Origin: Oasisia sp. SBJ-2009
Taxonomy: Eukaryota > Annelida > Polychaeta > Sabellida > Siboglinidae
NCBI GenBank assembly: GCA_964017155.1
Contig: OZ024854.1
Location: 69,706,754-69,770,753 of the forward strand
Length of the DNA stretch: 64,000 bases
Direction: 5' to 3'
Shown here: piece by piece, positions 30,301-60,200 of the stretch
Layout: every line of letters begins with the position of its first letter
Position numbering within the stretch: position 1 is the first letter of the stretch
Translations under genes and position numbers: made by a program
Notes under the pieces: generated by a model
Seen by the model: the letters and a program-made list of their open reading frames with translations, nothing else
What the model was told of the DNA's origin: nothing
Databases searched by the model: none

Positions 30301-30961
30301 AGTATCAAATGTTGGCAACGATACAGTTATAATACCAAAATTGAGGTGGGCCCGACTTGTACATTAATGCCTACACTTGCGGGCGCGCAACTTCACGCGC
30401 ACTCTCTCATAAAAGCACGTATACTCTCAATTTGTTTTCAGTATTTCACTAGTTGGCACTTATGTACAAGTCGGACCCACCTCAATGTTGCTATTATATC
30501 AGTATTTTTGCCAACATTTGATACTTGATTAAATTAATTCATTCAATTATAATCATCTTGCGCGTATTTATGTTTTATAAACAGCGCGTCTTGGCAAACT
30601 TTTGAGGTCGAAAAGACAGCGCGATTTGTGCCAGTCGCAAGCGCAGCGGTGCATGTTACTGCGCTGTGCATATGAAATGAGCGATAAACAGTTTGTTTAT
30701 GCCGACCACGCCGTCTTTTCGACCTCAAAAGTCAGCTAAGACGCGCTGTATATAAAACAATAATTTGCGCAAGATGATTATAATTGATTGAATTAATAAA
30801 ATCAAGTATCAAATGTTGGCAAAAATACAGTTATAATACCAAAATTGAGGTGGGCCCGACTTGTACATAAGTGCCAACACTTGCGGGCGCGTTCCTTCAC
30901 GCGCACTCTCTCATAAATAAAAGCACGTATACTCTCAATTTGTTTTCAGCATTTCACTATT
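24371..30961 (+). repeat. Segmental duplication, copy 1 (6591 bp, 13 units)
   Basis: Unit starts are 24371 D (1-bp deletion, ttttataacag), 24878 E, 25386 B, 25894 C, 26402 D, 26910 E, 27414 B, 27922 D-like, 28430 E-like, 28934 G, 29442 D-like, 29950 A', 30454 G. Rare variants shared with copy 2 at +6591: ggcgctttcc, acagttgtaatacc, aaatctagtatc, ggaccctcctc, gatacatgatt, cggttcatg, ttatagttgatt and ctacagttgcg. Shared at +7603: acatgaatatg, gttagcaaaaatac and cacgccgtc. The start edge is approximate. Confidence 0.87.
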
Positions 30962-33900: not shown

Positions 33901-36900
33901 GCCCGTCTTGTACATTAATGCCTACAGTTGCGGGCGCGCAACTTCACGCGCACTCTCTCATAAAAGCACGTATACTCTCAATTTGTTTTCAGTATTTCAC
34001 TAGTTGGCACTTATGTACAAGTCGGACCTACCTCAATGTTGCTATTATATAAGTATTTTTGCCAACATTTGATACTTGATTAAATTAATTCATTCAATTA
34101 TAATCATCTTGCGCGTATTTATGTTTTATAAACAGCGCGTCTTGGCAAACTTTTGAGGTCGAAAAGACAGCGCGATTTGTGCCAGTCGCAAGCGCAGCGG
34201 TGCATGTTACTGCGCTGTGCATATGAAATGAGCGATAAATAGTTTGTTTATGCCGACCACGCTGTTTTTTCGACCTCAAAAGTCTGCTAAGACGCGCTGT
34301 ATATAAAACAATAATATGCGCAAGATGATTATAATTGATTGAATTAACAAAATCAAGTATCAAATGTTGGCAAAAATACAGTTATAATACCAAAATTGAG
34401 GTGGGCCCGACTTGTACATAAGTGTCAACACTTGCGGGCGCGTTCCTTCACGCGCACTCTCTCATAAATAAAAGCACGTATACTCTCAATTTGTTTTCAG
34501 CATTTCACTATTTGGCACTTATGTACAAGTCGGACCCACCTCAATGTTGCTATTATATCAGTATTTTTGCCAACATTTGATACTTGATTAAATTAATTCA
34601 TTCAATTATAATCATCTTGCGCGTATTTATGTTTTATAAACAGCGCGTCTTGGCAAACTATTGAGGTCGAAAAGACAGCGCGAATTGTGCCAGTCGCAAG
34701 CGCAGCGGTGCATGTTACTGCGCTGTGCATATGAAATGAGCGATAAATAGTTTGTTTATGCCGACCACGCTGTCTTTTCGACCTCAAAAGTCAGCTAAGA
34801 CGCGCTGTATATAAAACAATAATATGCGCAAGATGATTATAATTGATTGACTTAACAAAATCAAGTATCAAATGTTGGCAAAAATACAGTTATAATACCA
34901 AAATTGAGGTGGGCCCGACTTGTACATAAGTGCCAACACTTGAGGGCGCGTTCCTTCACGCGCACTCTCTCATAAATAAAAGCACGTATACTCTCAATTT
35001 GTTTTCAGTATTTCACTATTTGGCACTTATGTACAAGTCGGACCCACCTCAATGTTGCTATTATATCAGTATTTTTGCCAACATTTGATACTTGATTAAA
35101 TTAATTCATTCAATTATAATCATCTTGCGCATATTTAAGTTTTATAAACAGCGCGTCTTGGCAAACTGTTGAGGTCGAAAAGACAGCGCCATTTGTGCCA
35201 GTCGCAAGCGCAGCGGTGCATGTTACTGCGCTGTGCATATGATATGAGCGCTAAACAGTTTGTTTATGCCTACCACGCTGTCTTTTCGACCTCAAAAGTC
35301 TGCTAAGACGCGCTGTATATAAAACATTAATATGCGCAAGATGATTATAATTGATTGAATTAACAAAACCAAGTATCAAATGTTGGCAACGATACAGTTA
35401 TAATACCAAAATTGAGGTGGGCCCGTCTTGTACATTAATGCCTACACTTGCGGGCGCGCAACTTCACGCGCACTCTCTCATAAAAGCACGTATACTCTCA
35501 ATTTGTTTTCAGTATTTCACTAGTTGGCACTTATGTACAAGTCGGACCCACCTCAATGTTGTTATTATATCAGTATTTTTGCCAACATTTGATACTTGAT
35601 TAAATTAATTCATTCAATTATAATCATCTTGCGCGTATTTATGTTTTATAAACAGCGCGTCTTGGCAAACTTTTGAGGTCGAAAAGACAGCGCGATTTGT
35701 GCCAGTCGCAAGCGCAGCGGTGCATGTTACTGCGCTGTGCATATGAAATGAGCGATAAATAGTTTGTTTATGCCGACCACGCTGTTTTTTCGACCTCAAA
35801 AGTCTGCTAAGACGCGCTGTATATAAAACATTAATATGCGCAAGATGATTATAATTGATTGAATTAACAAAATCAAGTATCAAATGTTGGCAAAAATACA
35901 GTTATAATACCAAAATTGAGGTGGGCCCGACTTGTACATAAGTGCCAACACTTGAGGGCGCGTTCCTTCACGCGCACTCTCTCATAAATAAAAGCACGTA
36001 TACTCTCAATTTGTTTTCAGTATTTCACTATTTGGCACTTATGTACAAGTCGGACCCACCTCAATGTTGCTATTATATCAGTATTTTTGCCAACATTTGA
36101 TACTTGATTAAATTAATTCATTCAATTATAATCATCTTGCGCATATTTAAGTTTTATAAACAGCGCGTCTTGGCAAACTGTTGAGGTCGAAAAGACAGCG
36201 CCATTTGTGCCAGTCGCAAGCGCAGCGGTGCATGTTACTGCGCTGTGCATATGAAATGAGCGATAAACAGTTTGTTTATGCCTACCACGCTGTCTTTTCG
36301 ACCTCAAAAGTCTGCTAAGACGCGCTGTATATAAAACATGAATATGCGCAAGATGATTATAATTGATTGAATTAACAAAATCAAGTATCAAATGTTGGCA
36401 ACGATACAGTTATAATACCAAAATTGAGGTGGGCCCGTCTTGTACATTAATGCCTACACTTGCGGGCGCGCAACTTCACGCGCACTCTCTCATAAAAGCA
36501 CGTATACTCTCAATTTGTTTTCAGTATTTCACTAGTTGGCACTTATGTACAAGTCGGACCCACCTCAATGTTGCTATTATATCAGTATTTTTGCCAACAT
36601 TTGATACTTGATTAAATTAATTCATTCAATTATAATCATCTTGCGCGTATTTATGTTTTATAAACAGCGCGTCTTGGCAAACTTTTGAGGTCGAAAAGAC
36701 AGCGCGATTTGTGCCAGTCGCAAGCGCAGCGGTGCATGTTACTGCGCTGTGCATATGAAATGAGCGATAAACAGTTTGTTTATGCCGACCACGCTGTCTT
36801 TTCGACCTCAAAAGTCAGCTAAGACGCGCTGTATATAAAACAATAATTTGCGCAAGATGATTATAATTGATTGAATTAACAAAATCAAGTATCAAATGTT

Positions 36901-38564
36901 GGCAAAAATACAGTTATAATACCAAAATTGAGGTGGGCCCGACTTGTACATAAGTGCCAAAACTTGCGGGCGCGTTCCTTCACGCGCACTCTCTCATAAA
37001 TAAAAGCACGTATACTATCAATTTGTTTTCAGTATTTCACTATTTGACACTTATGTACAAGTCGGACCCACCTCAATGTTGCTATTATATCAGTATTTTT
37101 GCCAACATTTGATACTTGATTAAATTAATTCATTCAATTATAATCATCTTGCGCGTATTTATGTTTTATAAACAGCGCGTCTTGGCAAACTATTGAGGTC
37201 GAAAAGACAGCGCGAATTGTGCCAGTCGCAAGCGCAGCGGTGCATGTTACTGCGCTGTGCATATGAAATGAGCGATAAATAGTTTGTTTATGCCGACCAC
37301 GCTGTCTTTTCGACCTCAAAAGTCAGCTAAGACGCGCTGTATATAAAACAATAATATGCGCAAGATGATTATAATTGATTGAGTTAACAAAATCAAGTAT
37401 CAAATGTTAGCAAAAATACAGTTATAGTACCAAAATTGAGGTGGGCCCGACTTGTACATAAGTGCCAACACTTGAGGGCGCGTTCCTTCACGCGCACTCT
37501 CTCATAAATAAAAGCACGTATACTATCAATTTGTTTTCAGTATTTCACTATTTGACACTTATGTACAAGTCGGACCCACCTCAATGTTGCTATTATATAA
37601 GTATTTTTGCCAACATTTGATACTTGATTAAATTAATTCATTCAATTATAATCATCTTGCGCATATTTATGTTTTATAAACAGCGCTTCTTGGCAAACTT
37701 TTGAGGTCGAAAAGACAGCGCCATTTGTGCCAGTCGCAAACGCAGCGGTGCATGTTACTGCGCTGTGCATATGATATGAGCGATAAACAGTTTGTTTATG
37801 CCTACCACGCTGTCTTTTCGACCTCAAAAGTCTGCTAAGACGCGCTGTATATAAAACATTACTATGCGCAAGATGATTATAATTGATTGAATTAACAAAA
37901 TCAAGTATCAAATGTTGGCAACGATACAGTTATAATACCAAAATTGAGGTGGGCCCGACTTGTACATTAATGCCTACACTTGCGGGCGCGCAACTTCACG
38001 CGCACTCTCTCATAAAAGCACGTATACTCTCAATTTGTTTTCAGTATTTCACTAGTTGGCACTTATGTACAAGTCGGACCCACCTCAATGTTGCTATTAT
38101 ATCAGTATTTTTGCCAACATTTGATACTTGATTAAATTAATTCATTCAATTATAATCATCTTGCGCGTATTTATGTTTTATAAACAGCGCGTCTTGGCAA
38201 ACTTTTGAGGTCGAAAAGACAGCGCGATTTGTGCCAGTCGCAAGCGCAGCGGTGCATGTTACTGCGCTGTGCATATGAAATGAGCGATAAACAGTTTGTT
38301 TATGCCGACCACGCCGTCTTTTCGACCTCAAAAGTCAGCTAAGACGCGCTGTATATAAAACAATAATTTGCGCAAGATGATTATAATTGATTGAATTAAT
38401 AAAATCAAGTATCAAATGTTGGCAAAAATACAGTTATAATACCAAAATTGAGGTGGGCCCGACTTGTACATAAGTGCCAAAACTTGCGGGCGCGTTCCTT
38501 CACGCGCACTTTCTCATAAATAAAAGCACGTATACTATCAAGTTGTTTTCAGTATTTCACTATT
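30962..38564 (+). repeat. Segmental duplication, copy 2 (7603 bp, 15 units)
   Basis: Unit starts are 30962 D (same 1-bp deletion), 31469 E, 31977 B, 32485 C, 32993 D, 33501 E, 34005 B, 34513 D-like, 35021 E, 35525 B, 36033 E-like, 36537 G, 37045 D-like, 37553 A', 38057 G. The units at 35021 and 35525 have no counterpart in copy 1. A few point differences separate the copies, for example cttatgaacaag near 24884 versus cttatgtacaag near 31475. Confidence 0.87.
35021..36032 (+). repeat. Two extra units (E+B, 1012 bp) in copy 2 of the segmental duplication
   Basis: The offset between the two copies changes from 6591 to 7603 bp across this point, exactly 504+508 bp. Either these units were gained in copy 2 or lost from copy 1. 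Whole-unit steps like this are what unequal exchange in a satellite produces. Confidence 0.8.
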
Positions 38565-40080
38565 TGACACTTATGTACAAGTCGGACCCACCTCAATGTT
38601 GCTATTATATAAGTATTTTTGCCAACATTTGATACTTGATTAAATTAATTCATTCAATTATAATCATCTTGCGCATATTTATGTTTTATAAACAGCGCTT
38701 CTTGGCAAACTTTTGAGGTCGAAAAGACAGCGCCATTTGTGCCAGTCGCAAACGCAGCGGTGCATGTTACTGCGCTGTGCATATGATATGAGCGATAAAC
38801 AGTTTGTTTATGCCTACCACGCTGTCTTTTCGACCTCAAAAGTCTGCTAAGACGCGCTGTATATAAAACATTAATATGCGCAAGATGATTATAATTGATT
38901 GAATTAACAAAATCAAGTATCAAATGTTGGCAACGATACAGTTATAATACCAAAATTGAGGTGGGCCCGTCTTGTACATTAATGCCTACACTTGCGGGCG
39001 CGCAACTTCACGCGCACTCTCTCATAAAAGCACGTATACTCTCAATTTGTTTTCAGTATTTCACTAGTTGGCACTTATGTACAAGTCGGACCCACCTCAA
39101 TGTTGCTATTATATCAGTATTTTTGCCAACATTTGATACTTGATTAAATTAATTAATTCAATTATAATCATCTTGCGCGTATTTATGTTTTATAAACAGC
39201 GCGTCTTGGCAAACTTTTGAGGTCGAAAAGACAGCGCGATTTGTGCCAGTCGCAAGCGCAGCGGTGCATGTTACTGCGCTGTGCATATGAAATGAGCGAT
39301 AAACAGTTTGTTTATGCCGACCACGCTGTCTTTTCGACCTCTAAAGTCAGCTAAGACGCGCTGTATATAAAACAATAATTTGCGCAAGATGATTATAATT
39401 GATTGAATTAATAAAATCAAGTATCAAATGTTGGCAAAAATACAGTTATAATACCAAAATTGAGGTGGGCCCGACTTGTACATAAGTGCCAAAACTTGCG
39501 GGCGCGTTCCTTCACGCGCACTCTCTCATAAATAAAAGCACGTATACTATCAATTTGTTTTCAGTGTTTCACTATTTGACACTTATGTACAAGTCGGACC
39601 CACCTCAATGTTGCTATTATATAAGTATTTTTGCCAACATTTGATACTTGATTAAATTAATTCATTCAATTATAATCATCTTGCGCATATTTATGTTTTA
39701 TAAACAGCGCTTCTTGGCAAACTTTTGAGGTCGAAAAGACAGCGCCATTTGTGCCAGTCGCAAACGCAGCGGTGCATGTTACTGCGCTGTGCATATGATA
39801 TGAGCGATAAACAGTTTGTTTATGCCTACCACGCTGTCTTTTCGACCTCAAAAGTCTGCTAAGACGCGCTGTATATAAAACATTAATATGCGCAAGATGA
39901 TTATAATTGATTGAATTAACAAAATCAAGTATCAAATGTTGGCAACGATACAGTTATAATACCAAAATTGAGGTGGGCCCGTCTTGTACATTAATGCCTA
40001 CACTTGCGGGCGCGCAACTTCACGCGCACTCTCTCATAAAAGCACGTATACTCTCAATTTGTTTTCAGTATTTCACTAGT

Positions 40081-43000
40081 TGGCACTTATGTACAAGTCG
40101 GACCCACCTCAATGTTGCTATTATATCAGTATTTTTGCCAACATTTGATACTTGATTAAATTAATTAATTCAATTATAATCATCTTGCGCGTATGTATGT
40201 TTTACAAACAGCGCGTCTTGGCAAACTTTTGAGGTCGAAAAGACAGCGCGATTTGTGCCAGTCGCAAGCGCAGCGGTGCATGTTACTGCGCTGTGCATAT
40301 GAAATGAGCGATAAACAGTTTGTTTATGCCGACCACGCTGTCTTTTCGACCTCAAAAGTCAGCTAAGACGCGCTGTATATAAAACAATAATTTGCGCAAG
40401 ATGATTATAATTGATTGAATTAATAAAATCAAGTATCAAATGTTGGCAAAAATACAGTTATAATACCAAAATTGAGGTGGGCCCGACTTGTACATAAGTG
40501 CCAAAACTTGCGGGCGCGTTCCTTCACGCGCACTTTCTCATAAATAAAAGCACGTATACTATCAAGTTGTTTTCAGTATTTCACTATTTGACACTTATGT
40601 ACAAGTCGGACCCACCTCAATGTTGCTATTATATAAGTATTTTTGCCAACATTTGATACTTGATTAAATTAATTCATTCAATTATAATCATCTTGCGCAT
40701 ATTTATGTTTTATAAACAGCGCTTCTTGGCAAACTTTTGAGGTCGAAAAGACAGCGCCATTTGTGCCAGTCGCAAACGCAGCGGTGCATGTTACTGCGCT
40801 GTGCATATGATATGAGCGATAAACAGTTTGTTTATGCCTACCACGCTGTCTTTTCGACCTCAAAAGTCTGCTAAGACGCGCTGTATATAAAACATTAATA
40901 TGCGCAAGATGATTATAATTGATTGAATTAACAAAATCAAGTATCAAATGTTGGCAACGATACAGTTATAATACCAAAATTGAGGTGGGCCCGTCTTGTA
41001 CATTAATGCCTACACTTGCGGGCGCGCAACTTCACGCGCACTCTCTCATAAAAGCACGTATACTCTCAATTTGTTTTCAGTATTTCACTAGTTGGCACTT
41101 ATGTACAAGTCGGACCCACCTCAATGTTGCTATTATATCAGTATTTTTGCCAACATTTGATACTTGATTAAATTAATTAATTCAATTATAATCATCTTGC
41201 GCGTATTTATGTTTTATAAACAGCGCGTCTTGGCAAACTTTTGAGGTCGAAAAGACAGCGCGATTTGTGCCAGTCGCAAGCGCAGCGGTGCATGTTACTG
41301 CGCTGTGCATATGAAATGAGCGATAAACAGTTTGTTTATGCCGACCACGCTGTCTTTTCGACCTCAAAAGTCAGCTAAGACGCGCTGTATATAAAACAAT
41401 AATTTGCGCAAGATGATTATAATTGATTGAATTAATAAAATCAAGTATCAAATGTTGGCAAAAATACAGTTATAATACCAAAATTGAGGTGGGCCCGACT
41501 TGTACATAAGTGCCAAAACTTGCGGGCGCGTTCCTTCACGCGCACTCTCTCATAAATAAAAGCACGTATACTATCAATTTGTTTTCAGTATTTCACTATT
41601 TGACACTTATGTACAAGTCGGACCCACCTCAATGTTGCTATTATATAAGTATTTTTGCCAACATTTGATACTTGATTAAATTAATTCATTCAATTATAAT
41701 CATCTTGCGCATATTTATGTTTTATAAACAGCGCTTCTTGGCAAACTTTTGAGGTCGAAAAGACAGCGCCATTTGTGCCAGTCGCAAACGCAGCGGTGCA
41801 TGTTACTGCGCTGTGCATATGATATGAGCGATAAACAGTTTGTTTATGCCTACCACGCTGTCTTTTCGACCTCAAAAGTCTGCTAAGACGCGCTGTATAT
41901 AAAACATTAATATGCGCAAGATGATTATAATTGATTGAATTAACAAAATCAAGTATCAAATGTTGGCAACGATACAGTTATAATACCAAAATTGAGGTGG
42001 GCCCGTCTTGTACATTAATGCCTACACTTGCGGGCGCGCAACTTCACGCGCACTCTCTCATAAAAGCACGTATACTCTCAATTTGTTTTCAGTATTTCAC
42101 TAGTTGGCACTTATGTACAAGTCGGACCCACCTCAATGTTGCTATTATATCAGTATTTTTGCCAACATTTGATACTTGATTAAATTAATTAATTCAATTA
42201 TAATCATCTTGCGCGTATTTATGTTTTATAAACAGCGCGTCTTGGCAAACTTTTGAGGTCGAAAAGACAGCGCGATTTGTGCCAGTCGCAAGCGCAGCGG
42301 TGCATGTTACTGCGCTGTGCATATGAAATGAGCGATAAACAGTTTGTTTATGCCGACCACGCTGTCTTTTCGACCTCAAAAGTCAGCTAAGACGCGCTGT
42401 ATATAAAACCATAATTTGCGCAAGATGATTATAATTGATTGAATTAATAAAATCAAGTATCAAATGTTGGCAAAAATACAGTTATAATACCAAAATTGAG
42501 GTGGGCCCGACTTGTACATAAGTGCCAAAACTTGCGGGCGCGTTCCTTCACGCGCACTCTCTCATAAATAAAAGCACGTATACTATCAATTTGTTTTCAG
42601 TATTTCACTATTTGACACTTATGTACAAGTCGGACCCACCTCAATGTTGCTATTATATAAGTATTTTTGCCAACATTTGATACTTGATTAAATTAATTCA
42701 TTCAATTATAATCATCTTGCGCATATTTATGTTTTATAAACAGCGCTTCTTGGCAAACTTTTGAGGTCGAAAAGACAGCGCCATTTGTGCCAGTCGCAAA
42801 CGCAGCGGTGCATGTTACTGCGCTGTGCATATGATATGAGCGATAAACAGTTTGTTTATGCCTACCACGCTGTCTTTTCGACCTCAAAAGTCTGCTAAGA
42901 CGCGCTGTATATAAAACATTAATATGCGCAAGATGATTATAATTGATTGAATTAACAAAATCAAGTATCAAATGTTGGCAACGATACAGTTATAATACCA

Positions 43001-44128
43001 AAATTGAGGTGGGCCCGTCTTGTACATTAATGCCTACACTTGCGGGCGCGCAACTTCACGCGCACTCTCTCATAAAAGCACGTATACTCTCAATTTGTTT
43101 TCAGTATTTCACTAGTTGGCACTTATGTACAAGTCGGACCCACCTCAATGTTGCTATTATATCAGTATTTTTGCCAACATTTGATACTTGATTAAATTAA
43201 TTAATTCAATTATAATCATCTTGCGCGTATTTATGTTTTACAAACAGCGCGTCTTGGCAAACTTTTGAGGTCGAAAAGACAGCGCGATTTGTGCCAGTCG
43301 CAAGCGCAGCGGTGCATGTTACTGCGCTGTGGATATGAAATGAGCGATAAACAGTTTGTTTATGCCGACCACGCTGTCTTTTCGACCTCAAAAGTCAGCT
43401 AAGACGCGCTGTATATAAAACAATAATTTGCGCAAGATGATTATAATTGATTGAATTAATAAAATCAAGTATCAAATGTTGGCAAAAATACAGTTATAAT
43501 ACAAAAATTGAGGTGGGCCCGACTTGTACATAAGTGCCAAAACTTGCGGGCGCGTTCCTTCACGCGCACTCTCTCATAAATAAAAGCACGTATACTATCA
43601 ATTTGTTTTCAGTATTTCACTATTTGACACTTATGTACAAGTCGGACCCACCTCAATGTTGCTATTATATAAGTATTTTTGCCAACATTTGATACTTGAT
43701 TAAATTAATTCATTCAATTATAATCATCTTGCGCATATTTATGTTTTATAAACAGCGCTTCTTGGCAAACTTTTGAGGTCGAAAAGACAGCGCCATTTGT
43801 GCCAGTCGCAAACGCAGCGGTGCATGTTACTGCGCTGTGCATATGATATGAGCGATAAACAGTTTGTTTATGCCTACCACGCTGTCTTTTCGACCTCAAA
43901 AGTCTGCTAAGACGCGCTGTATATAAAACATTAATATGCGCAAGATGATTATAATTGATTGAATTAACAAAATCAAGTATCAAATGTTGGCAACGATACA
44001 GTTATAATACCAAAATTGAGGTGGGCCCGTCTTGTACATTAATGCCTACACTTGCGGGCGCGCAACTTCACGCGCACTCTCTCATAAAAGCACGTATACT
44101 CTCAATTTGTTTTCAGTATTTCACTAGT
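40081..44128 (+). repeat. Four-dimer super-repeat, copy 1 (4048 bp)
   Basis: Successive G units carry private variants: 40081 has gtatgtatgttttacaaac plus spacer actttctc and caagttg; 41093 is plain; 42105 has aaaaccataattt; 43117 has gtggatatg and atacaaaaattg. The same order recurs at 44129 and again from 49618. Confidence 0.83.
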
Positions 44129-46248
44129 TGGCACTTATGTACAAGTCGGACCCACCTCAATGTTGCTATTATATCAGTATTTTTGCCAACATTTGATACT
44201 TGATTAAATTAATTAATTCAATTATAATCATCTTGCGCGTATGTATGTTTTACAAACAGCGCGTCTTGGCAAACTTTTGAGGTCGAAAAGACAGCGCGAT
44301 TTGTGCCAGTCGCAAGCGCAGCGGTGCATGTTACTGCGCTGTGCATATGAAATGAGCGATAAACAGTTTGTTTATGCCGACCACGCTGTCTTTTCGACCT
44401 CAAAAGTCAGCTAAGACGCGCTGTATATAAAACAATAATTTGCGCAAGATGATTATAATTGATTGAATTAATAAAATCAAGTATCAAATGTTGGCAAAAA
44501 TACAGTTATAATACCAAAATTGAGGTGGGCCCGACTTGTACATAAGTGCCAAAACTTGCGGGCGCGTTCCTTCACGCGCACTTTCTCATAAATAAAAGCA
44601 CGTATACTATCAAGTTGTTTTCAGTATTTCACTATTTGACACTTATGTACAAGTCGGACCCACCTCAATGTTGCTATTATATAAGTATTTTTGCCAACAT
44701 TTGATACTTGATTAAATTAATTCATTCAATTATAATCATCTTGCGCATATTTATGTTTTATAAACAGCGCTTCTTGGCAAACTTTTGAGGTCGAAAAGAC
44801 AGCGCCATTTGTGCCAGTCGCAAACGCAGCGGTGCATGTTACTGCGCTGTGCATATGATATGAGCGATAAACAGTTTGTTTATGCCTACCACGCTGTCTT
44901 TTCGACCTCAAAAGTCTGCTAAGACGCGCTGTATATAAAACATTAATATGCGCAAGATGATTATAATTGATTGAATTAACAAAATCAAGTATCAAATGTT
45001 GGCAACGATACAGTTATAATACCAAAATTGAGGTGGGCCCGTCTTGTACATTAATGCCTACACTTGCGGGCGCGCAACTTCACGCGCACTCTCTCATAAA
45101 AGCACGTATACTCTCAATTTGTTTTCAGTATTTCACTAGTTGGCACTTATGTACAAGTCGGACCCACCTCAATGTTGCTATTATATCAGTATTTTTGCCA
45201 ACATTTGATACTTGATTAAATTAATTAATTCAATTATAATCATCTTGCGCGTATTTATGTTTTATAAACAGCGCGTCTTGGCAAACTTTTGAGGTCGAAA
45301 AGACAGCGCGATTTGTGCCAGTCGCAAGCGCAGTGGTGCATGTTACTGCGCTGTGCATATGAAATGAGCGATAAACAGTTTGTTTATGCCGACCACGCTG
45401 TCTTTTCGACCTCAAAAGTCAGCTAAGACGCGCTGTATATAAAACAATAATTTGCGCAAGATGATTATAATTGATTGAATTAATAAAATCAAGTATCAAA
45501 TGTTGGCAAAAATACAGTTATAATACCAAAATTGAGGTGGGCCCGACTTGTACATAAGTGCCAAAACTTGCGGGCGCGTTCCTTCACGCGCACTCTCTCA
45601 TAAATAAAAGCACGTATACTATCAATTTGTTTTCAGTATTTCACTATTTGACACTTATGTACAAGTCGGACCCACCTCAATGTTGCTATTATATAAGTAT
45701 TTTTGCCAACATTTGATACTTGATTAAATTAATTCATTCAATTATAATCATCTTGCGCATATTTATGTTTTATAAACAGCGCTTCTTGGCAAACTTTTGA
45801 GGTCGAAAAGACAGCGCCATTTGTGCCAGTCGCAAACGCAGCGGTGCATGTTACTGCGCTGTGCATATGATATGAGCGATAAACAGTTTGTTTATGCCTA
45901 CCACGCTGTCTTTTCGACCTCAAAAGTCTGCTAAGACGCGCTGTATATAAAACATTAATATGCGCAAGATGATTATAATTGATTGAATTAACAAAATCAA
46001 GTATCAAATGTTGGCAACGATACAGTTATAATACCAAAATTGAGGTGGGCCCGTCTTGTACATTAATGCCTACACTTGCGGGCGCGCAACTTCACGCGCA
46101 CTCTCTCATAAAAGCACGTATACTCTCAATTTGTTTTCAGTATTTCACTAGTTGGCACTTATGTACAAGTCGGACCCACCTCAATGTTGCTATTATATCA
46201 GTATTTTTGCCAACATTTGATACTTGATTAAATTAATTAATTCAATTA

Positions 46249-46256
46249 TAATCATC
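46249..46256 (+). repeat. 8-bp putative target-site duplication TAATCATC, left copy
   Basis: This is unit position 97-104, directly followed by the GGCAC terminus. The base that normally precedes GGCAC is T, but here it is C from the target, so the junction is unambiguous. Confidence 0.75.
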
Positions 46257-46582
46257 GGCACTTATGTACAAGTCGGGCCCACCTCAATTTTGGTATTATA
46301 ACTGTATTTTTGCCAACATTTGATACTTGATTTTATTAATTCAATCAATTATAATCATCTTGCGCAAATTATTGTTTTATATACAGCGCGTCTTAGCTGA
46401 CTTTTGAGGTCGAAAAGACAGCGTGGTCGGCATAAACAAACTGTTTATCGCTCATTTCATATGCACAGCGCAGTAACATGCACCGCTGCGCTTGCGACTG
46501 GCACAAATCGCGCTGTCTTTTCGACCTCAAAAGTTTGCCAAGACGCGCTGTTTGTAAAACATACATACGCGCAAGATGATTA
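46257..46582 (-). repeat. Inverted unit fragment (326 bp, positions 422-97 of a G unit)
   Basis: Reading the minus strand gives a G unit from taatcatcttgcgc through the centre to aagtgcc. It carries gtatgtatg and ttttacaaacag, the variant otherwise seen only in G units at 40081, 44129 and 49618. Its outer end has GGGCCC at about 46276, the right-arm state, confirming that a right arm comes first. It is the only segment in the window where the unit centre is inverted. Confidence 0.95.
46575..46582 (-). repeat. 8-bp putative target-site duplication, inverted copy GATGATTA
   Basis: This is the reverse complement of TAATCATC and is directly followed by GGCAC at 46583. The preceding A replaces the T expected before GGCAC in the array, so this junction is also unambiguous. 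Opposite orientation of the two copies is expected when the intervening segment has been inverted. Confidence 0.75.
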
Positions 46583-49500
46583 GGCACTTATGTACAAGTC
46601 GGACCCACCTCAATGTTGCTATTATATCAGTATTTTTGCCAACATTTGATACTTGATTAAATTAATTAATTCAATTATAATCATCTTGCGCGTATTTATG
46701 TTTTATAAACAGCGCGTCTTGGCAAACTTTTGAGGTCGAAAAGACAGCGCGATTTGTGCCAGTCGCAAGCGCAGCGGTGCATGTTACTGCGCTGTGCATA
46801 TGAAATGAGCGATAAACAGTTTGTTTATGCCGACCACGCTGTCTTTTCGACCTCAAAAGTCAGCTAAGACGCGCTGTATATAAAACAATAATTTGCGCAA
46901 GATGATTATAATTGATTGAATTAATAAAATCAAGTATCAAATGTTGGCAAAAATACAGTTATAATACCAAAATTGAGGTGGGCCCGACTTGTACATAAGT
47001 GCCAAAACTTGCGGGCGCGTTCCTTCACGCGCACTCTCTCATAAATAAAAGCACGTATACTATCAATTTGTTTTCAGTATTTCACTATTTGACACTTATG
47101 TACAAGTCGGACCCACCTCAATGTTGCTATTATATAAGTATTTTTGCCAACATTTGATACTTGATTAAATTAATTCATTCAATTATAATCATCTTGCGCA
47201 TATTTATGTTTTATAAACAGCGCTTCTTGGCAAACTTTTGAGGTCGAAAAGACAGCGCCATTTGTGCCAGTCGCAAACGCAGCGGTGCATGTTACTGCGC
47301 TGTGCATATGATATGAGCGATAAACAGTTTGTTTATGCCTACCACGCTGTCTTTTCGACCTCAAAAGTCTGCTAAGACGCGCTGTATATAAAACATTAAT
47401 ATGCGCAAGATGATTATAATTGATTGAATTAACAAAATCAAGTATCAAATGTTGGCAACGATACAGTTATAATACCAAAATTGAGGTGGGCCCGTCTTGT
47501 ACATTAATGCCTACACTTGCGGGCGCGCAACTTCACGCGCACTCTCTCATAAAAGCACGTATACTCTCAATTTGTTTTCAGTATTTCACTAGTTGGCACT
47601 TATGTACAAGTCGGACCCACCTCAATGTTGCTATTATATCAGTATTTTTGCCAACATTTGATACTTGATTAAATTAATTAATTCAATTATAATCATCTTG
47701 CGCGTATTTATGTTTTATAAACAGCGCGTCTTGGCAAACTTTTGAGGTCGAAAAGACAGCGCGATTTGTGCCAGTCGCAAGCGCAGCGGTGCATGTTACT
47801 GCGCTGTGCATATGAAATGAGCGATAAACAGTTTGTTTATGCCGACCACGCTGTCTTTTCGACCTCAAAAGTCAGCTAAGACGCGCTGTATATAAAACCA
47901 TAATTTGCGCAAGATGATTATAATTGATTGAATTAATAAAATCAAGTATCAAATGTTGGCAAAAATACAGTTATAATACCAAAATTGAGGTGGGCCCGAC
48001 TTGTACATAAGTGCCAAAACTTGCGGGCGCGTTCCTTCACGCGCACTCTCTCATAAATAAAAGCACGTATACTATCAATTTGTTTTCAGTATTTCACTAT
48101 TTGACACTTATGTACAAGTCGGACCCACCTCAATGTTGCTATTATATAAGTATTTTTGCCAACATTTGATACTTGATTAAATTAATTCATTCAATTATAA
48201 TCATCTTGCGCATATTTATGTTTTATAAACAGCGCTTCTTGGCAAACTTTTGAGGTCGAAAAGACAGCGCCATTTGTGCCAGTCGCAAACGCAGCGGTGC
48301 ATGTTACTGCGCTGTGCATATGATATGAGCGATAAACAGTTTGTTTATGCCTACCACGCTGTCTTTTCGACCTCAAAAGTCTGCTAAGACGCGCTGTATA
48401 TAAAACATTAATATGCGCAAGATGATTATAATTGATTGAATTAACAAAATCAAGTATCAAATGTTGGCAACGATACAGTTATAATACCAAAATTGAGGTG
48501 GGCCCGTCTTGTACATTAATGCCTACACTTGCGGGCGCGCAACTTCACGCGCACTCTCTCATAAAAGCACGTATACTCTCAATTTGTTTTCAGTATTTCA
48601 CTAGTTGGCACTTATGTACAAGTCGGACCCACCTCAATGTTGCTATTATATCAGTATTTTTGCCAACATTTGATACTTGATTAAATTAATTAATTCAATT
48701 ATAATCATCTTGCGCGTATTTATGTTTTACAAACAGCGCGTCTTGGCAAACTTTTGAGGTCGAAAAGACAGCGCGATTTGTGCCAGTCGCAAGCGCAGCG
48801 GTGCATGTTACTGCGCTGTGGATATGAAATGAGCGATAAACAGTTTGTTTATGCCGACCACGCTGTCTTTTCGACCTCAAAAGTCAGCTAAGACGCGCTG
48901 TATATAAAACAATAATTTGCGCAAGATGATTATAATTGATTGAATTAATAAAATCAAGTATCAAATGTTGGCAAAAATACAGTTATAATACAAAAATTGA
49001 GGTGGGCCCGACTTGTACATAAGTGCCAAAACTTGCGGGCGCGTTCCTTCACGCGCACTCTCTCATAAATAAAAGCACGTATACTATCAATTTGTTTTCA
49101 GTATTTCACTATTTGACACTTATGTACAAGTCGGACCCACCTCAATGTTGCTATTATATAAGTATTTTTGCCAACATTTGATACTTGATTAAATTAATTC
49201 ATTCAATTATAATCATCTTGCGCATATTTATGTTTTATAAACAGCGCTTCTTGGCAAACTTTTGAGGTCGAAAAGACAGCGCCATTTGTGCCAGTCGCAA
49301 ACGCAGCGGTGCATGTTACTGCGCTGTGCATATGATATGAGCGATAAACAGTTTGTTTATGCCTACCACGCTGTCTTTTCGACCTCAAAAGTCTGCTAAG
49401 ACGCGCTGTATATAAAACATTAATATGCGCAAGATGATTATAATTGATTGAATTAACAAAATCAAGTATCAAATGTTGGCAACGATACAGTTATAATACC

Positions 49501-49617
49501 AAAATTGAGGTGGGCCCGTCTTGTACATTAATGCCTACACTTGCGGGCGCGCAACTTCACGCGCACTCTCTCATAAAAGCACGTATACTCTCAATTTGTT
49601 TTCAGTATTTCACTAGT

Positions 49618-52600
49618 TGGCACTTATGTACAAGTCGGACCCACCTCAATGTTGCTATTATATCAGTATTTTTGCCAACATTTGATACTTGATTAAATTA
49701 ATTAATTCAATTATAATCATCTTGCGCGTATGTATGTTTTACAAACAGCGCGTCTTGGCAAACTTTTGAGGTCGAAAAGACAGCGCGATTTGTGCCAGTC
49801 GCAAGCGCAGCGGTGCATGTTACTGCGCTGTGCATATGAAATGAGCGATAAACAGTTTGTTTATGCCGACCACGCTGTCTTTTCGACCTCAAAAGTCAGC
49901 TAAGACGCGCTGTATATAAAACAATAATTTGCGCAAGATGATTATAATTGATTGAATTAATAAAATCAAGTATCAAATGTTGGCAAAAATACAGTTATAA
50001 TACCAAAATTGAGGTGGGCCCGACTTGTACATAAGTGCCAAAACTTGCGGGCGCGTTCCTTCACGCGCACTTTCTCATAAATAAAAGCACGTATACTATC
50101 AAGTTGTTTTCAGTATTTCACTATTTGACACTTATGTACAAGTCGGACCCACCTCAATGTTGCTATTATATAAGTATTTTTGCCAACATTTGATACTTGA
50201 TTAAATTAATTCATTCAATTATAATCATCTTGCGCATATTTATGTTTTATAAACAGCGCTTCTTGGCAAACTTTTGAGGTCGAAAAGACAGCGCCATTTG
50301 TGCCAGTCGCAAACGCAGCGGTGCATGTTACTGCGCTGTGCATATGATATGAGCGATAAACAGTTTGTTTATGCCTACCACGCTGTCTTTTCGACCTCAA
50401 AAGTCTGCTAAGACGCGCTGTATATAAAACATTAATATGCGCAAGATGATTATAATTGATTGAATTAACAAAATCAAGTATCAAATGTTGGCAACGATAC
50501 AGTTATAATACCAAAATTGAGGTGGGCCCGTCTTGTACATTAATGCCTACACTTGCGGGCGCGCAACTTCACGCGCACTCTCTCATAAAAGCACGTATAC
50601 TCTCAATTTGTTTTCAGTATTTCACTAGTTGGCACTTATGTACAAGTCGGACCCACCTCAATGTTGCTATTATATCAGTATTTTTGCCAACATTTGATAC
50701 TTGATTAAATTAATTAATTCAATTATAATCATCTTGCGCGTATTTATGTTTTATAAACAGCGCGTCTTGGCAAACTTTTGAGGTCGAAAAGACAGCGCGA
50801 TTTGTGCCAGTCGCAAGCGCAGCGGTGCATGTTACTGCGCTGTGCATATGAAATGAGCGATAAACAGTTTGTTTATGCCGACCACGCTGTCTTTTCGACC
50901 TCAAAAGTCAGCTAAGACGCGCTGTATATAAAACAATAATTTGCGCAAGATGATTATAATTGATTGAATTAATAAAATCAAGTATCAAATGTTGGCAAAA
51001 ATACAGTTATAATACCAAAATTGAGGTGGGCCCGACTTGTACATAAGTGCCAAAACTTGCGGGCGCGTTCCTTCACGCGCACTCTCTCATAAATAAAAGC
51101 ACGTATACTATCAATTTGTTTTCAGTATTTCACTATTTGACACTTATGTACAAGTCGGACCCACCTCAATGTTGCTATTATATAAGTATTTTTGCCAACA
51201 TTTGATACTTGATTAAATTAATTCATTCAATTATAATCATCTTGCGCATATTTATGTTTTATAAACAGCGCTTCTTGGCAAACTTTTGAGGTCGAAAAGA
51301 CAGCGCCATTTGTGCCAGTCGCAAACGCAGCGGTGCATGTTACTGCGCTGTGCATATGATATGAGCGATAAACAGTTTGTTTATGCCTACCACGCTGTCT
51401 TTTCGACCTCAAAAGTCTGCTAAGACGCGCTGTATATAAAACATTAATATGCGCAAGATGATTATAATTGATTGAATTAACAAAATCAAGTATCAAATGT
51501 TGGCAACGATACAGTTATAATACCAAAATTGAGGTGGGCCCGTCTTGTACATTAATGCCTACACTTGCGGGCGCGCAACTTCACGCGCACTCTCTCATAA
51601 AAGCACGTATACTCTCAATTTGTTTTCAGTATTTCACTAGTTGGCACTTATGTACAAGTCGGACCCACCTCAATGTTGCTATTATATCAGTATTTTTGCC
51701 AACATTTGATACTTGATTAAATTAATTAATTCAATTATAATCATCTTGCGCGTATTTATGTTTTATAAACAGCGCGTCTTGGCAAACTTTTGAGGTCGAA
51801 AAGACAGCGCGATTTGTGCCAGTCGCAAGCGCAGCGGTGCATGTTACTGCGCTGTGCATATGAAATGAGCGATAAACAGTTTGTTTATGCCGACCACGCT
51901 GTCTTTTCGACCTCAAAAGTCAGCTAAGACGCGCTGTATATAAAACCATAATTTGCGCAAGATGATTATAATTGATTGAATTAATAAAATCAAGTATCAA
52001 ATGTTGGCAAAAATACAGTTATAATACCAAAATTGAGGTGGGCCCGACTTGTACATAAGTGCCAAAACTTGCGGGCGCGTTCCTTCACGCGCACTCTCTC
52101 ATAAATAAAAGCACGTATACTATCAATTTGTTTTCAGTATTTCACTATTTGACACTTATGTACAAGTCGGACCCACCTCAATGTTGCTATTATATAAGTA
52201 TTTTTGCCAACATTTGATACTTGATTAAATTAATTCATTCAATTATAATCATCTTGCGCATATTTATGTTTTATAAACAGCGCTTCTTGGCAAACTTTTG
52301 AGGTCGAAAAGACAGCGCCATTTGTGCCAGTCGCAAACGCAGCGGTGCATGTTACTGCGCTGTGCATATGATATGAGCGATAAACAGTTTGTTTATGCCT
52401 ACCACGCTGTCTTTTCGACCTCAAAAGTCTGCTAAGACGCGCTGTATATAAAACATTAATATGCGCAAGATGATTATAATTGATTGAATTAACAAAATCA
52501 AGTATCAAATGTTGGCAACGATACAGTTATAATACCAAAATTGAGGTGGGCCCGTCTTGTACATTAATGCCTACACTTGCGGGCGCGCAACTTCACGCGC

Positions 52601-54677
52601 ACTCTCTCATAAAAGCACGTATACTCTCAATTTGTTTTCAGTATTTCACTAGTTGGCACTTATGTACAAGTCGGACCCACCTCAATGTTGCTATTATATC
52701 AGTATTTTTGCCAACATTTGATACTTGATTAAATTAATTAATTCAATTATAATCATCTTGCGCGTATTTATGTTTTACAAACAGCGCGTCTTGGCAAACT
52801 TTTGAGGTCGAAAAGACAGCGCGATTTGTGCCAGTCGCAAGCGCAGCGGTGCATGTTACTGCGCTGTGGATATGAAATGAGCGATAAACAGTTTGTTTAT
52901 GCCGACCACGCTGTCTTTTCGACCTCAAAAGTCAGCTAAGACGCGCTGTATATAAAACAATAATTTGCGCAAGATGATTATAATTGATTGAATTAATAAA
53001 ATCAAGTATCAAATGTTGGCAAAAATACAGTTATAATACAAAAATTGAGGTGGGCCCGACTTGTACATAAGTGCCAAAACTTGCGGGCGCGTTCCTTCAC
53101 GCGCACTCTCTCATAAATAAAAGCACGTATACTATCAATTTGTTTTCAGTATTTCACTATTTGACACTTATGTACAAGTCGGACCCACCTCAATGTTGCT
53201 ATTATATAAGTATTTTTGCCAACATTTGATACTTGATTAAATTAATTCATTCAATTATAATCATCTTGCGCATATTTATGTTTTATAAACAGCGCTTCTT
53301 GGCAAACTTTTGAGGTCGAAAAGACAGCGCCATTTGTGCCAGTCGCAAACGCAGCGGTGCATGTTACTGCGCTGTGCATATGATATGAGCGATAAACAGT
53401 TTGTTTATGCCTACCACGCTGTCTTTTCGACCTCAAAAGTCTGCTAAGACGCGCTGTATATAAAACATTAATATGCGCAAGATGATTATAATTGATTGAA
53501 TTAACAAAATCAAGTATCAAATGTTGGCAACGATACAGTTATAATACCAAAATTGAGGTGGGCCCGTCTTGTACATTAATGCCTACACTTGCGGGCGCGC
53601 AACTTCACGCGCACTCTCTCATAAAAGCACGTATACTCTCAATTTGTTTTCAGTATTTCACTAGTTGGCACTTATGTACAAGTCGGACCCACCTCAATGT
53701 TGCTATTATATCAGTATTTTTGCCAACATTTGATACTTGATTAAATTAATTAATTCAATTATAATCATCTTGCGCGTATTTATGTTTTACAAACAGCGCG
53801 TCTTGGCAAACTTTTGAGGTCGAAAAGACAGCGCGATTTGTGCCAGTCGCAAGCGCAGCGGTGCATGTTACTGCGCTGTGGATATGAAATGAGCGATAAA
53901 CAGTTTGTTTATGCCGACCACGCTGTCTTTTCGACCTCAAAAGTCAGCTAAGACGCGCTGTATATAAAACAATAATTTGCGCAAGATGATTATAATTGAT
54001 TGAATTAATAAAATCAAGTATCAAATGTTGGCAAAAATACAGTTATAATACAAAAATTGAGGTGGGCCCGACTTGTACATAAGTGCCAAAACTTGCGGGC
54101 GCGTTCCTTCACGCGCACTCTCTCATAAATAAAAGCACGTATACTATCAATTTGTTTTCAGTATTTCACTATTTGACACTTATGTACAAGTCGGACCCAC
54201 CTCAATGTTGCTATTATATAAGTATTTTTGCCAACATTTGATACTTGATTAAATTAATTCATTCAATTATAATCATCTTGCGCATATTTATGTTTTATAA
54301 ACAGCGTTTCTTGGCAAACTTGTGAGGTCGAAAAGACAGCGCCATTTGTGCCAGTCGCAAACGCAGCAGTGCATGTTACTGCGCTGTGCATATGATATGA
54401 GCGATAAACAGTTTGTTTATGCCTACCACGCTGTCTTTTCGACCTCAAAAGTCTGCTAAGACGCGCTGTATATAAAACATTAATATGCGCAAGATGATTA
54501 TAATTGATTGAATTAACAAAATCAAGTATCAAATGTTGGCAACGATACAGTTATAATACCAAAATTGAGGTGGGCCCGTCTTGTACATTAATGCCTACAC
54601 TTGCGGGCGCGCAACTTCACGCGCACTCTCTCATAAAAGCACGTATACTCTCAATTTGTTTTCAGTATTTCACTAGT
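49618..54677 (+). repeat. Four-dimer super-repeat, copy 3, with its last dimer doubled
   Basis: G-unit order: 49618 (gtatgtatg type), 50630 plain, 51642 (aaaaccataa), 52654 and 53666 (both gtggatatg with atacaaaaattg). The fourth dimer is duplicated in tandem by 1012 bp. The A' unit at 54174 has several private changes (cagcgtttc, cttgtgagg, gcagcagtgc). Confidence 0.8.
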
Positions 54678-56197
54678 TGGCACTTATGTACAAGTCGGAC
54701 CCACCTCAATGTTGCTATTATATCAGTATTTTTGCCAACATTTGATACTTGATTAAATTAATTAATTCAATTATAATCATCTTGCGCGTATTTATGTTTT
54801 ATAAACAGCGCGTCTTGGCAAACTTTTGAGGTCGAAAAGACAGCGCGATTTGTGCCAGTCGCAAGCGCAGCGGTGCATGTTACTGCGCTGTGCATATGAA
54901 ATGAGCGATAAACAGTTTGTTTATGCCGACCACGCTGTCTTTTCGACCTCAAAAGTCAGCTAAGACGCGCTGTATATAAAACAATAATTTGCGCAAGATG
55001 ATTATAATTGATTGAATTAATAAAATCAAGTATCAAATGTTGGCAAAAATACAGTTATAATACCAAAATTGAGGTGGGCCCGACTTGTACATAAGTGCCA
55101 AAACTTGCGGGCGCGTTCCTTCACGCGCACTCTCTCATAAATAAAAGCACGTATACTATCAATTTGTTTTCAGTATTTCACTATTTGACACTTATGTACA
55201 AGTCGGACCCACCTCAATGTTGCTATTATATAAGTATTTTTGCCAACATTTGATACTTGATTAAATTAATTCATTCAATTATAATCATCTTGCGCATATT
55301 TATGTTTTATAAACAGCGCTTCTTGGCAAACTTTTGAGGTCGAAAAGACAGCGCCATTTGTGCCAGTCGCAAACGCAGCGGTGCATGTTACTGCGCTGTG
55401 AATATGATATGAGCGATAAACAGTTTGTTTATGCCTACCACGCTATCTTTTCGACCTCAAAAGTCTGCTAAGACGCGCTGTATATAAAACATTAATATGC
55501 GTAAGATGATTATAATTGATTGAATTAACAAAATCAAGTATCAAATGTTGGCAACGATACAGTTATAATACCAAAATTGAGGTGGGCCCGTCTTGTACAT
55601 TAATGCCTACACTTGCGGGCGCGCAACTTCACGCGCACTCTCTCATAAAAGCACGTATACTCTCAATTTGTTTTCAGTATTTCACTAGTTGGCACTTATG
55701 TACAAGTCGGACCCACCTCAATGTTGCTATTATATCAGTATTTTTGCCAACATTTGATACTTGATTAAATTAATTAATTCAATTATAATCATCTTGCGCG
55801 TATTTATGTTTTATAAACAGCGCGTCTTGGCAAACTTTTGAGGTCGAAAAGACAGCGCGATTTGTGCCAGTCGCAAGCGCAGCGGTGCATGTTACTGCGC
55901 TGTGCATATGAAATGAGCGATAAACAGTTTGTTTATGCCGACCACGCTGTCTTTTCGACCTCAAAAGTCAGCTAAGACGCGCTGTATATAAAACAATAAT
56001 TTGCGCAAGATGATTATAATTGATTGAATTAATAAAATCAAGTATCAAATGTTGGCAAAAATACAGTTATAATACCAAAATTGAGGTGGGCCCGACTTGT
56101 ACATAAGTGCCAAAACTTGCGGGCGCGTTCCTTCACGCGCACTCTCTCATAAATAAAAGCACGTATACTATCAATTTGTTTTCAGTATTTCACTATT

Positions 56198-57208
56198 TGA
56201 CACTTATGTACAAGTCGGACCCACCTCAATGTTGCTATTATATAAGTATTTTTGCCAACATTTGATACTTGATTAAATTAATTCATTCAATTATAATCAT
56301 CTTGCGCGTATTTATGTTTTATAAACAGCGCGTCTTGGCAAACTTTTGAGGTCGAAAAGACAGCGCGATTTGTGCCAGTCGCAAGCGCAGCGGTGCATGT
56401 TACTGCGCTGTGCATATGAAATGAGCGATAAATAGTTTGTTTATGCCGACCACGCTGTTTTTTCGACCTCAAAAGTCTGCTAAGACGCGCTGTATATAAA
56501 ACAATAATATGCGCAAGATGATTATAATTGATTGAATTAACAAAATCAAGTATCAAATGTTGGCAAAAATACAGTTATAATACCAAAATTGAGGTGGGCC
56601 CGACTTGTACATAAGTGCCAACACTTGCGGGCGCGTTCCTTCACGCGCACTCTCTCATAAATAAAAGCACGTATACTCTCAATTTGTTTTCAGTATTTCA
56701 CTATTTGGCACTTATGTACAAGTCGGACCCACCTCAATGTTGCTATTATATAAGTATTTTTGCCAACATTTGATACTTGATTAAATTAATTCATTCAATT
56801 ATAATCATCTTGCGCGTATTTATGTTTTATAAACAGCGCGTCTTGGCAAACTTTTGAGGTCGAAAAGACAGCGCGATTTGTGCCAGTCGCAAGCGCAGCG
56901 GTGCATGTTACTGCGCTGTGCATATGAAATGAGCGATAAATAGTTTGTTTATGCCGACCACGCTGTTTTTTCGACCTCAAAAGTCTGCTAAGACGCGCTG
57001 TATATAAAACAATAATATGCGCAAGATGATTATAATTGATTGAATTAACAAAATCAAGTATCAAATGTTGGCAAAAATACAGTTATAATACCAAAATTGA
57101 GGTGGGCCCGACTTGTACATTAATGCCTACACTTGAGGCGCGCAACTTCACGCGCACTCTCTCATAAAAGCACGTATACTCTCAATTTGTTTTCAGTATT
57201 TCACTAGT
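56198..57208 (+). repeat. Two B units interrupting the dimer array
   Basis: B units start at 56198 and 56706. The second has a short spacer with a 1-bp deletion (cttgaggcgcgc), giving a 503-bp unit. They sit between a G unit at 55690 and a G unit at 57209, so the A'-G alternation is lost here. Confidence 0.82.
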
Positions 57209-60200
57209 TGGCACTTATGTACAAGTCGGACCCACCTCAATGTTGCTATTATATCAGTATTTTTGCCAACATTTGATACTTGATTAAATTAATTAATTCA
57301 ATTATAATCATCTTGCGCGTATTTATGTTTTACAAACAGCGCGTCTTGGCAAACTTTTGAGGTCGAAAAGACAGCGCGATTTGTGCCAGTCGCAAGCGCA
57401 GCGGTGCATGTTACTGCGCTGTGCATATGAAATGAGCGATAAACAGTTTGTTTATGCCGACCACGCTGTCTTTTCGACCTCAAAAGTCAGCTAAGACGCG
57501 CTGTATATAAAACAATAATTTGCGCAAGATGATTATAATTGATTGAATTAATAAAATCAAGTATCAAATGTTGGCAAAAATACAGTTATAATACCAAAAT
57601 TGAGGTGGGCCCGACTTGTACATAAGTGCCAAAACTTGCGGGCGCGTTCCTTCACGCGCACTCTCTCATAAATAAAAGCACGTATACTATCAATTTGTTT
57701 TCAGTATTTCACTATTTGACACTTATGTACAAGTCGGACCCACCTCAATGTTGCTATTATATAAGTATTTTTGCCAACATTTGATACTTGATTAAATTAA
57801 TTCATTCAATTATAATCATCTTGCGCATATTTATGTTTTATAAACAGCGCTTCTTGGCAAACTTTTGAGGTCGAAAAGACAGCGCTATTTGTGCCAGTCG
57901 CAAACGCAGCGGTGCATGTTACTGCGCTGTGCATATGATATGAGCGATAAACAGTTTGTTTATGCCTACCACGCTGTCTTTTCGACCTCAAAAGTCTGCT
58001 AAGACGCGCTGTATATAAAACATTAATATGCGCAAGAAGATTATAATTGATTGAATTAACAAAATCAAGTATCAAATGTTGGCAACGATACAGTTATAAT
58101 ACCAAAATTGAGGTGGGCCCGTCTTGTACATTAATGCCTACACTTGCGGGCGCGCAACTTCACGCGCACTCTCTCATAAAAGCACGTATACTCTCAATTT
58201 GTTTTCAGTATTTCACTAGTTGGCACTTATGTACAAGTCGGACCCACCTCAATGTTGCTATTATATCAGTATTTTTGCCAACATTTGATACTTGATTAAA
58301 TTAATTAATTCAATTATAATCATCTTGCGCGTATTTATGTTTTATAAACAGCGCGTCTTGGCAAACTTTTGAGGTCGAAAAGACAGCGCGATTTGTGCCA
58401 GTCGCAAGCGCAGCGGTGCATGTTACTGCGCTGTGCATATGAAATGAGCGATAAACAGTTTGTTTATGCCGACCACGCTGTCTTTTCGACCTCAAAAGTC
58501 AGCTAAGACGCGCTGTATATAAAACAATAATTTGCGCAAGATGATTATAATTGATTGAATTAATAAAATCAAGTATCAAATGTTGGCAAAAATACAGTTA
58601 TAATACCGAAATTGAGGTGGGCCCGACTTGTACATAAGTGCCAAAACTTGCGGGCGCGTTCCTTCACGCGCACTCTCTCATAAATAAAAGCACGTATACT
58701 ATCAATTTGTTTTCAGTATTTCACTATTTGACACTTATGTACAAGTCGGACCCACCTCAATGTTGCTATTATATAAGTATTTTTGCCAACATTTGATACT
58801 TGATTAAATTAATTCATTCAATTATAATCATCTTGCGCGTATTTATGTTTTATAAACAGCGCTTCTTGGCAAACTTTTGAGGTCGAAAAGACAGCGCCAT
58901 TTGTGCCAGTCGCAAACGCAGCGGTGCATGTTACTGCGCTGTGCATATGATATGAGCGATAAACAGTTTGTTTATGCCTACCACGCTGTCTTTTCGACCT
59001 CAAAAGTCTGCTAAGACGCGCTGTATATAAAACATTAATATGCGCAAGATGATTATAATTGATTGAATTAACAAAATCAAGTATCAAATGTTGGCAACGA
59101 TACAGTTATAATACCAAAATTGAGGTGGGCCCGTCTTGTATATTAATGCCTACACTTGCGGGCGCGCAACTTCACGCGCACTCTCTCATAAAAGCACGTA
59201 TACTCTCAATTTGTTTTCAGTATTTCACTAGTTGGCACTTATGTACAAGTCGGACCCACCTCAATGTTGCTATTATATCACTATTTTTGCCAACATTTGA
59301 TACTTGATTAAATTAATTAATTCAATTATAATCATCTTGCGCGTATTTATGTTTTATAAACAGCGCGTCTTGGCAAACTTTTGAGGTCGAAAAGACAGCG
59401 CGATTTGTGCCAGTCGCAAGCGCAGCGGTGCATGTTACTGCGCTGTGCATATGAAATGAGCGATAAACAGTTTGTTTATGCCGACCACGCTGTCTTTTCG
59501 ACCTCAAAAGTCAGCTAAGACGCGCTGTATATAAAACAATAATTTGCGCAAGATGATTATAATTGATTGAATTAATAAAATCAAGTATCAAATGTTGGCA
59601 AAAATACAGTTATAATACCAAAATTGAGGTGGGCCCGACTTGTACATAAGTGCCAAAACTTGCGGGCGCGTTCCTTCACGCGCACTCTCTCATAAATAAA
59701 AGCACGTATACTATCAATTTGTTTTCAGTATTTCACTATTTGACACTTATGTACAAGTCGGACCCACCTCAATGTTGCTATTATATAAGTATTTTTGCCA
59801 ACATTTGATACTTGATTAAATTAATTCATTCAATTATAATCATCTTGCGCATATTTATGTTTTATAAACAGCGCTTCTTGGCAAACTTTTGAGGTCGAAA
59901 AGACAGCGCCATTTGTGCCAGTCGCAAACGCAGCGGTGCATGTTACTGCGCTGTGCATATGATATGAGCGATAAACAGTTTGTTTATGCCTACCACGCTG
60001 TCTTTTCGACCTCAAAAGTCTGCTAAGACGCGCTGTATATAAAACATTAATATGCGCAAGATGATTATAATTGATTGAATTAACAAAATCAAGTATCAAA
60101 TGTTGGCAACGATACAGTTATAATACCAAAATTGAGGTGGGCCCGACTTGTACATTAATGCCTACACTTGCGGGCGCGCAACTTCACGCGCACTCTCTCA

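Follow-up and report, generated by a model that had tools for sequence, protein, structure and literature searches.

A base-exact inversion in a palindromic satellite of the annelid Oasisia sp. probably arose by reversed-ends transposition

Introduction

What kind of reaction inverts part of a satellite unit in such a way that both of the new joins fall exactly on unit ends? The question is raised by a stretch of 64,000 bp from the genome of the siboglinid annelid Oasisia sp. SBJ-2009 (assembly GCA_964017155.1, contig OZ024854.1, positions 69,706,754 to 69,770,753 of the forward strand), hereafter the window, the whole of which is a single continuous satellite of 421-bp near-palindromic elements (GGCAC...GTGCC) separated by spacers of 82–87 bp. 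The ladder formed by these elements has one large break, at 46154–46582, where a 326-bp fragment of an element lies inverted. An earlier note on this DNA had attributed the break to reversed-ends transposition (RET), a reaction of the facing ends of two neighboring elements, and had pointed to the hAT superfamily. Our analysis supports RET, by a transposase supplied in trans, as the probable and best explanation of the break; the ends involved fit another superfamily better than hAT.

Results

Anatomy of the break

The break is confirmed as a real, base-exact feature. It runs from element positions 1–103 into positions 421–96 in inverted orientation and then into position 1 of a G-type unit, one of the two alternating kinds (G-type and A-type) that make up this part of the array (Table 1). 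Comparison of every possible split point with an intact block leaves one per junction, 46256|46257 and 46582|46583, and there is thus no microhomology at either join. These are the joins that the earlier note had claimed, and they hold without ambiguity, as does its end of the left stub at 46256; its start of the stub was numbered one base early, at T46153, the element beginning at 46154. Both joins begin at GGCAC, and so coincide with the termini by which two directly oriented elements face each other. In unit 49619 the palindrome extends 2 bp (TT/AA) outside the GG...CC ends, yet the joins sit at the exact terminus GG, 2 bp inside the palindrome limit, a position that therefore suits the end of a transposon better than a hairpin base. 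Exactly 8 bp, TAATCATC/GATGATTA, are present both in the stub and, inverted, in the adjoining piece, as the earlier note had reported, and its arithmetic is also borne out, the replacement from 46154 to 46583 measuring 429 bp as expected from 1012 − 591 + 8 = 429.

Nothing else in the window resembles this arrangement. Elements start with GGCACTTATGTAC, usually preceded by a spacer ending in CACTA[T/G]TT, and the search for GGCAC junctions at non-spacer sites that the earlier note had proposed, made here across the window, returned 46257 and 46583 only (2/128 left-arm starts). Both junction 20-mers are unique in the window, a loop probe (≤8 mismatches in 30) hits the + strand 126 times and the − strand once, at position 46463, and Tandem Repeats Finder (periods limited to 500) flags the disturbed spot as its only place. 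When breakpoints were drawn uniformly at random within one 1012-bp block, as a null designed after the feature was seen, both joins fell at termini in the right sense in 61 of 9,989,038 valid draws, and in none was there an overlap of 7–10 bp as well, which rules out a chance origin.

Table 1. Features of the satellite array and of its break, in window coordinates
Feature	Positions	Strand	Remarks
Satellite array of palindromic elements and spacers	1..64000	+	128 left-arm and 125 right-arm matches, regular spacing
Upstream intact A-type element, haplotype 5	45650..46070	+	Left end GACAC, right end GGCATTAATG (reverse complement)
Left stub, element positions 1–103 of a G-type unit	46154..46256	+	Ends in the putative 8-bp target TAATCATC; 0 mismatches to 40082, 44130 and 49619
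First copy of the putative 8-bp target duplication, TAATCATC	46249..46256	+	
Inverted piece, 326 bp, reverse complement of element positions 96–421	46257..46582	-	Begins at the exact right terminus; 0/326 mismatches to haplotype 7
Second, inverted copy of the putative target duplication	46575..46582	-	GATGATTA on the + strand
Downstream intact G-type element, haplotype 8	46583..47003	+	Left terminus GGCAC joined to the inverted piece
Intact sister block, G haplotype 7, A haplotype 5, G haplotype 8	49619..51051	+	Proxy for the array before the event

Haplotypes of the units involved

Haplotypes were defined as exact whole units over 125 aligned elements, leaving out the start at 46257, the unit at 46154 and the last unit, at 63786, which has no following start. 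The comparison of the inverted piece with single units likewise kept 125 of the 128 arm starts (46154, 46257 and the truncated 63786 left out) and cut every element at 421 bases, although 24372 and 30963 have only 420. The inverted piece belongs to haplotype 7: it has 0/326 mismatches to units 40082, 44130 and 49619 (3/125 elements), no other element is identical to it, and the next-best match, unit 57210, differs by one base. The stub also matches many other G-type units with no mismatch and so is not diagnostic of a haplotype.

The G units from 40082 to 55691 follow a four-step haplotype cycle, 7-8-9-10, of 4048 bp, reading 7, 8, 9, 10, 7, 11, break, 8, 9, 10, 7, 8, 9, 10, 10, 8, 8, where haplotype 11 is haplotype 8 with one change at position 193. 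Among the A units of the same stretch, 13/15 share one identical haplotype (5), a contrast with the cycling G units that points to uneven homogenization of alternating units. Haplotype 7 is followed by 8 or by its one-base variant 11 in all three of the other places where it occurs, and the break is likewise followed by 8.

A reversed-ends product scripted from the sister block at 49619, with donors taken from a list of 24 G-type units picked by hand from the 125 elements, is identical to window positions 46154–48083, with 0 mismatches in 1930 bp, and downstream the match continues for 3149 bp until the first difference. This product includes both the inversion of the DNA reaching from an element end to the target and the loss of what lay between the elements. 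The match confirms the breakpoints and the haplotypes, and any mechanism with identical breakpoints would give the same result. Together with the anatomy of the joins and the order of haplotype 7 and then 8, it upholds the reversed-ends interpretation that the earlier note had put forward.

A model of the reaction and the ends it would use

In the proposed reaction, a transposase acting in trans would bind the intact right end of a haplotype-7 G unit and, facing it, the intact left end of a haplotype-8 G unit. Both bound ends would be cut, and the reversed pair would then be inserted, with an 8-bp stagger, into TAATCATC in the left arm of the haplotype-7 unit. The stretch between the target and the right end would thereby be inverted and the target duplicated in inverted orientation, and the DNA between the two ends would be lost, in the minimal case 591 bp comprising a spacer, an A-type unit and a spacer. 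The loss could also have exceeded 591 bp by one or more whole 4048-bp haplotype cycles, and the second end may belong to the same chromatid or to its sister.

The model involves two G units rather than the A unit that lies between them. The G-type ends used are identical over the first 20 bp, GGCACTTATGTACAAGTCGG on both sides, while the ends of A-type haplotype 5 are altered, GACAC on the left and GGCATTAATGTACAAGAC (reverse complement) on the right; this alteration would explain why a G unit was used and not the adjacent A unit. It seems that the reaction passed over a unit whose ends are altered, and we infer that such ends disable an A unit and that the lost unit was of haplotype 5. RET with the adjacent A-type unit is ruled out, since the downstream unit is G-type haplotype 8 along its full length. 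Altered ends are common in the window: 34/125 elements have GACAC on the left, 34/125 have GGCATTAATGTACAAGAC on the right and 20/125 have both, and the common GGCACTTATGTACAAG ends occur on both sides in 67/125.

Several observations weigh against RET. The haplotypes upstream of the break run 7 and then 11, so that a stub unit of haplotype 7 placed directly after 11 is off-cycle (9 being expected) and calls for one independent unequal exchange. Off-cycle steps make up 3/14 transitions elsewhere in the stretch (a count over G units 40082–55691 only, which excludes the event pair and treats haplotype 11 as 8). Over the 3000 bp upstream of the stub there are 12 differences from the sister block, beginning 627 bp away, in line with the off-cycle shift. 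If the stub were instead an on-cycle haplotype 9, a simple one-unit RET would fail, because the stub and the inverted piece would then come from different units and their 8-bp overlap at matching element positions would be unexplained; the stub carries no diagnostic site, so an origin from haplotype 7 and one from haplotype 9 are indistinguishable from its sequence. The case is a single event in one assembly. Neither a transposase gene nor a scattered copy of the element was seen in the 64-kb window, which has no open reading frame of at least 120 amino acids.

Alternative explanations

A replication template switch, of the fork-stalling or microhomology-mediated break-induced replication type, is an improbable source of the break. 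The nascent strand would leave the left arm at position 103, continue on the opposite strand, starting at the right end and moving inward, and then jump forward to the next G unit. The element invites such a reading, as unit 49619 is predicted to fold as single-stranded DNA into a very stable hairpin (−161 kcal/mol, z −24), and stable hairpins are a known trouble for replication forks. A haplotype-9 stub would moreover keep the haplotypes on cycle with no additional exchange. The earlier note had held that a template switch predicts neither terminus-exact joins nor the 8-bp overlap, and this judgment stands: microhomology is found at neither join, both joins lie at the exact element end and thus 2 bp within the palindrome limit, and the overlap would have to be a coincidence.

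Somewhat less probable again are two insertions followed by homologous recombination, in which an inverted element enters TAATCATC, a second one enters the same 8-bp site of the first, and a seamless exchange with the downstream unit removes the remainder. Here standard transposition with 8-bp duplications suffices, an exchange between near-identical units would be traceless, and the target 8-mer is frequent on the + strand (TAATCATC 127 copies, GATGATTA 124). The scheme nevertheless requires three events and two hits at one element position, and it does not predict that the inverted piece should carry the haplotype that normally precedes the downstream unit.

Least probable of the three is an assembly artifact, with foldback or chimeric reads misjoined in the repeat. 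Arrays of near-identical units are difficult to assemble, and the sequence at hand is an assembled one; but a misjoin gives no reason to expect terminus-exact joins with their 8-bp overlap, the other 125 measured elements are all 421 bp (123) or 420 bp (2) long, and the sequence of the inverted piece recurs unchanged in a local haplotype. Two further readings fail outright, whole-unit inversion by arm recombination, which would not yield a stub and a terminus-exact restart, and autointegration of one excised element, as the left end of the stub unit remains attached to the upstream flank.

The candidate transposase

The one 8-bp overlap agrees with the target duplication of hAT elements, on which the earlier note had based its pointer to that superfamily, but 8-bp duplications are common to other superfamilies and the pointer is not supported by the ends. 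Those of hAT elements have the general form YARNG. The ends here begin with GGCAC (GGCACTTATG) and do not resemble the C/TAGGGATGAAA given as the terminal inverted repeat (TIR) of maize Ac/Ds (PMC3260210). Merlin elements are described as having terminal GG, TIRs of 24–462 bp and target duplications of 8 or 9 bp (PMC8101967). The satellite element has GGCAC ends and arms of about 170 bp (in unit 49619, 170-bp arms 88% identical in inverted orientation, with the outermost 20 bp perfect), and its one putative duplication is of 8 bp. Set against these superfamily criteria, the GG ends, the long inverted repeats and the putative 8-bp duplication favor a Merlin-like transposase, which would carry the domain DDE_Tnp_IS1595 and by structure is the better-fitting candidate. 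A P or Mutator-like element may also be the source.

The end sequence GGCACTTATGTACAAGTC has no match in viral or genome contig collections, where records from the window's own genome may be omitted, and the whole unit has no match among phages. Absence from such collections is expected for a eukaryotic host.

Layout of the satellite array

A scan for arm starts (≤6 mismatches in 27 bases) gives 128 left-arm and 125 right-arm matches in a strict ladder. Element length is 421 bp in 123/125 and 420 bp in 2/125 (units 24372 and 30963), and the 125 spacers measure 87 bp (82), 83 bp (40), 86 bp (2) or 82 bp (1). Autocorrelation has maxima at 508 and 1012. Dimers of 1012 bp (unit types J-E) span about 37 kb to 56 kb of the window. 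Positions 1–21000 often follow another higher-order pattern of about five units, or 2536 bp (types A-B-B-D-E, with some units extra or missing; all of these types being clusters cut at 8 differences), and this pattern of the first third gives way to the 1012-bp dimer from about 37 kb. The commonest flanks of ordinary units, CACTATTT/CACTAGTT on the left and TACACTTG/AACACTTG/AAAACTTG on the right, include no target duplication, so the duplication of an original insertion is not visible in the interior of the array; that the array itself originated by transposition we infer from the palindrome and the ends only.

Discussion

RET and satellites related to miniature inverted-repeat transposable elements (MITEs) are each already known. 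In the inversions described for maize Ac/fAc, two directly oriented elements contribute their facing termini to a joint transposition; the DNA from one of these ends up to the new site becomes inverted, the inter-element fragment disappears, and the breakpoints carry 8-bp duplications (PMC8225341, PMC9910405, PMC3744419). The break shares with these accounts the facing ends of direct elements, the inversion from end to target, the loss of the intervening DNA and, at the breakpoints, a putative target duplication of 8 bp. It departs from them in that the ends are those of satellite units, the target lies inside a participating element and only 326 bp are inverted, and from maize Ac (PMC3260210) in its terminal sequence. 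Its likeness to the Merlin superfamily, as summarized in PMC8101967, lies in the terminal GG, the long TIRs and the putative 8-bp duplication.

Satellites derived from MITEs or foldback elements include Xstir and miDNA4 in Xenopus and TIR-220 of Tetris (PMC12628747, PMC9659126). As portrayed there, these too are tandem arrays of a short non-autonomous inverted-repeat element or of parts of one; unlike them, the repeat here is a whole element with matching ends plus a spacer, and one unit bears a transposase-type scar. The Drosophila inversion 2z3, which is likewise tied to elements with long inverted repeats (Galileo), is ascribed in PMC2775673 to ectopic recombination on the strength of exchanged 7-bp target duplications and chimeric elements; the break in the satellite differs in having a putative new target duplication at element termini. 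A search of the open-licence PMC literature found no report of RET combined with a satellite, and a full-text search with the end sequences gave only an unrelated match. What we describe is thus a known reaction in a setting not found reported in that literature, by an element unlike hAT.

RET on sister chromatids yields tandem duplications that begin with an element (PMC3744419). A wider and rather doubtful possibility is that the satellite is a living substrate for transposase, and that alternative transposition of facing ends both built the tandem array and still remodels it. If the units are indeed competent and the array is remodeled in this way, cutting by transposase would be a mechanism of turnover besides unequal exchange.

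Transposon-derived satellites are usually viewed as relics that evolve through unequal exchange and errors of replication. If the reversed-ends explanation is true, units of a homogenized satellite would still be recognizable and cuttable by a transposase, and RET would extend to an element whose ends are not hAT-like. It would also provide a signature that can be counted in complete satellite assemblies, namely GGCAC joined to non-spacer DNA together with 8-bp inverted overlaps.

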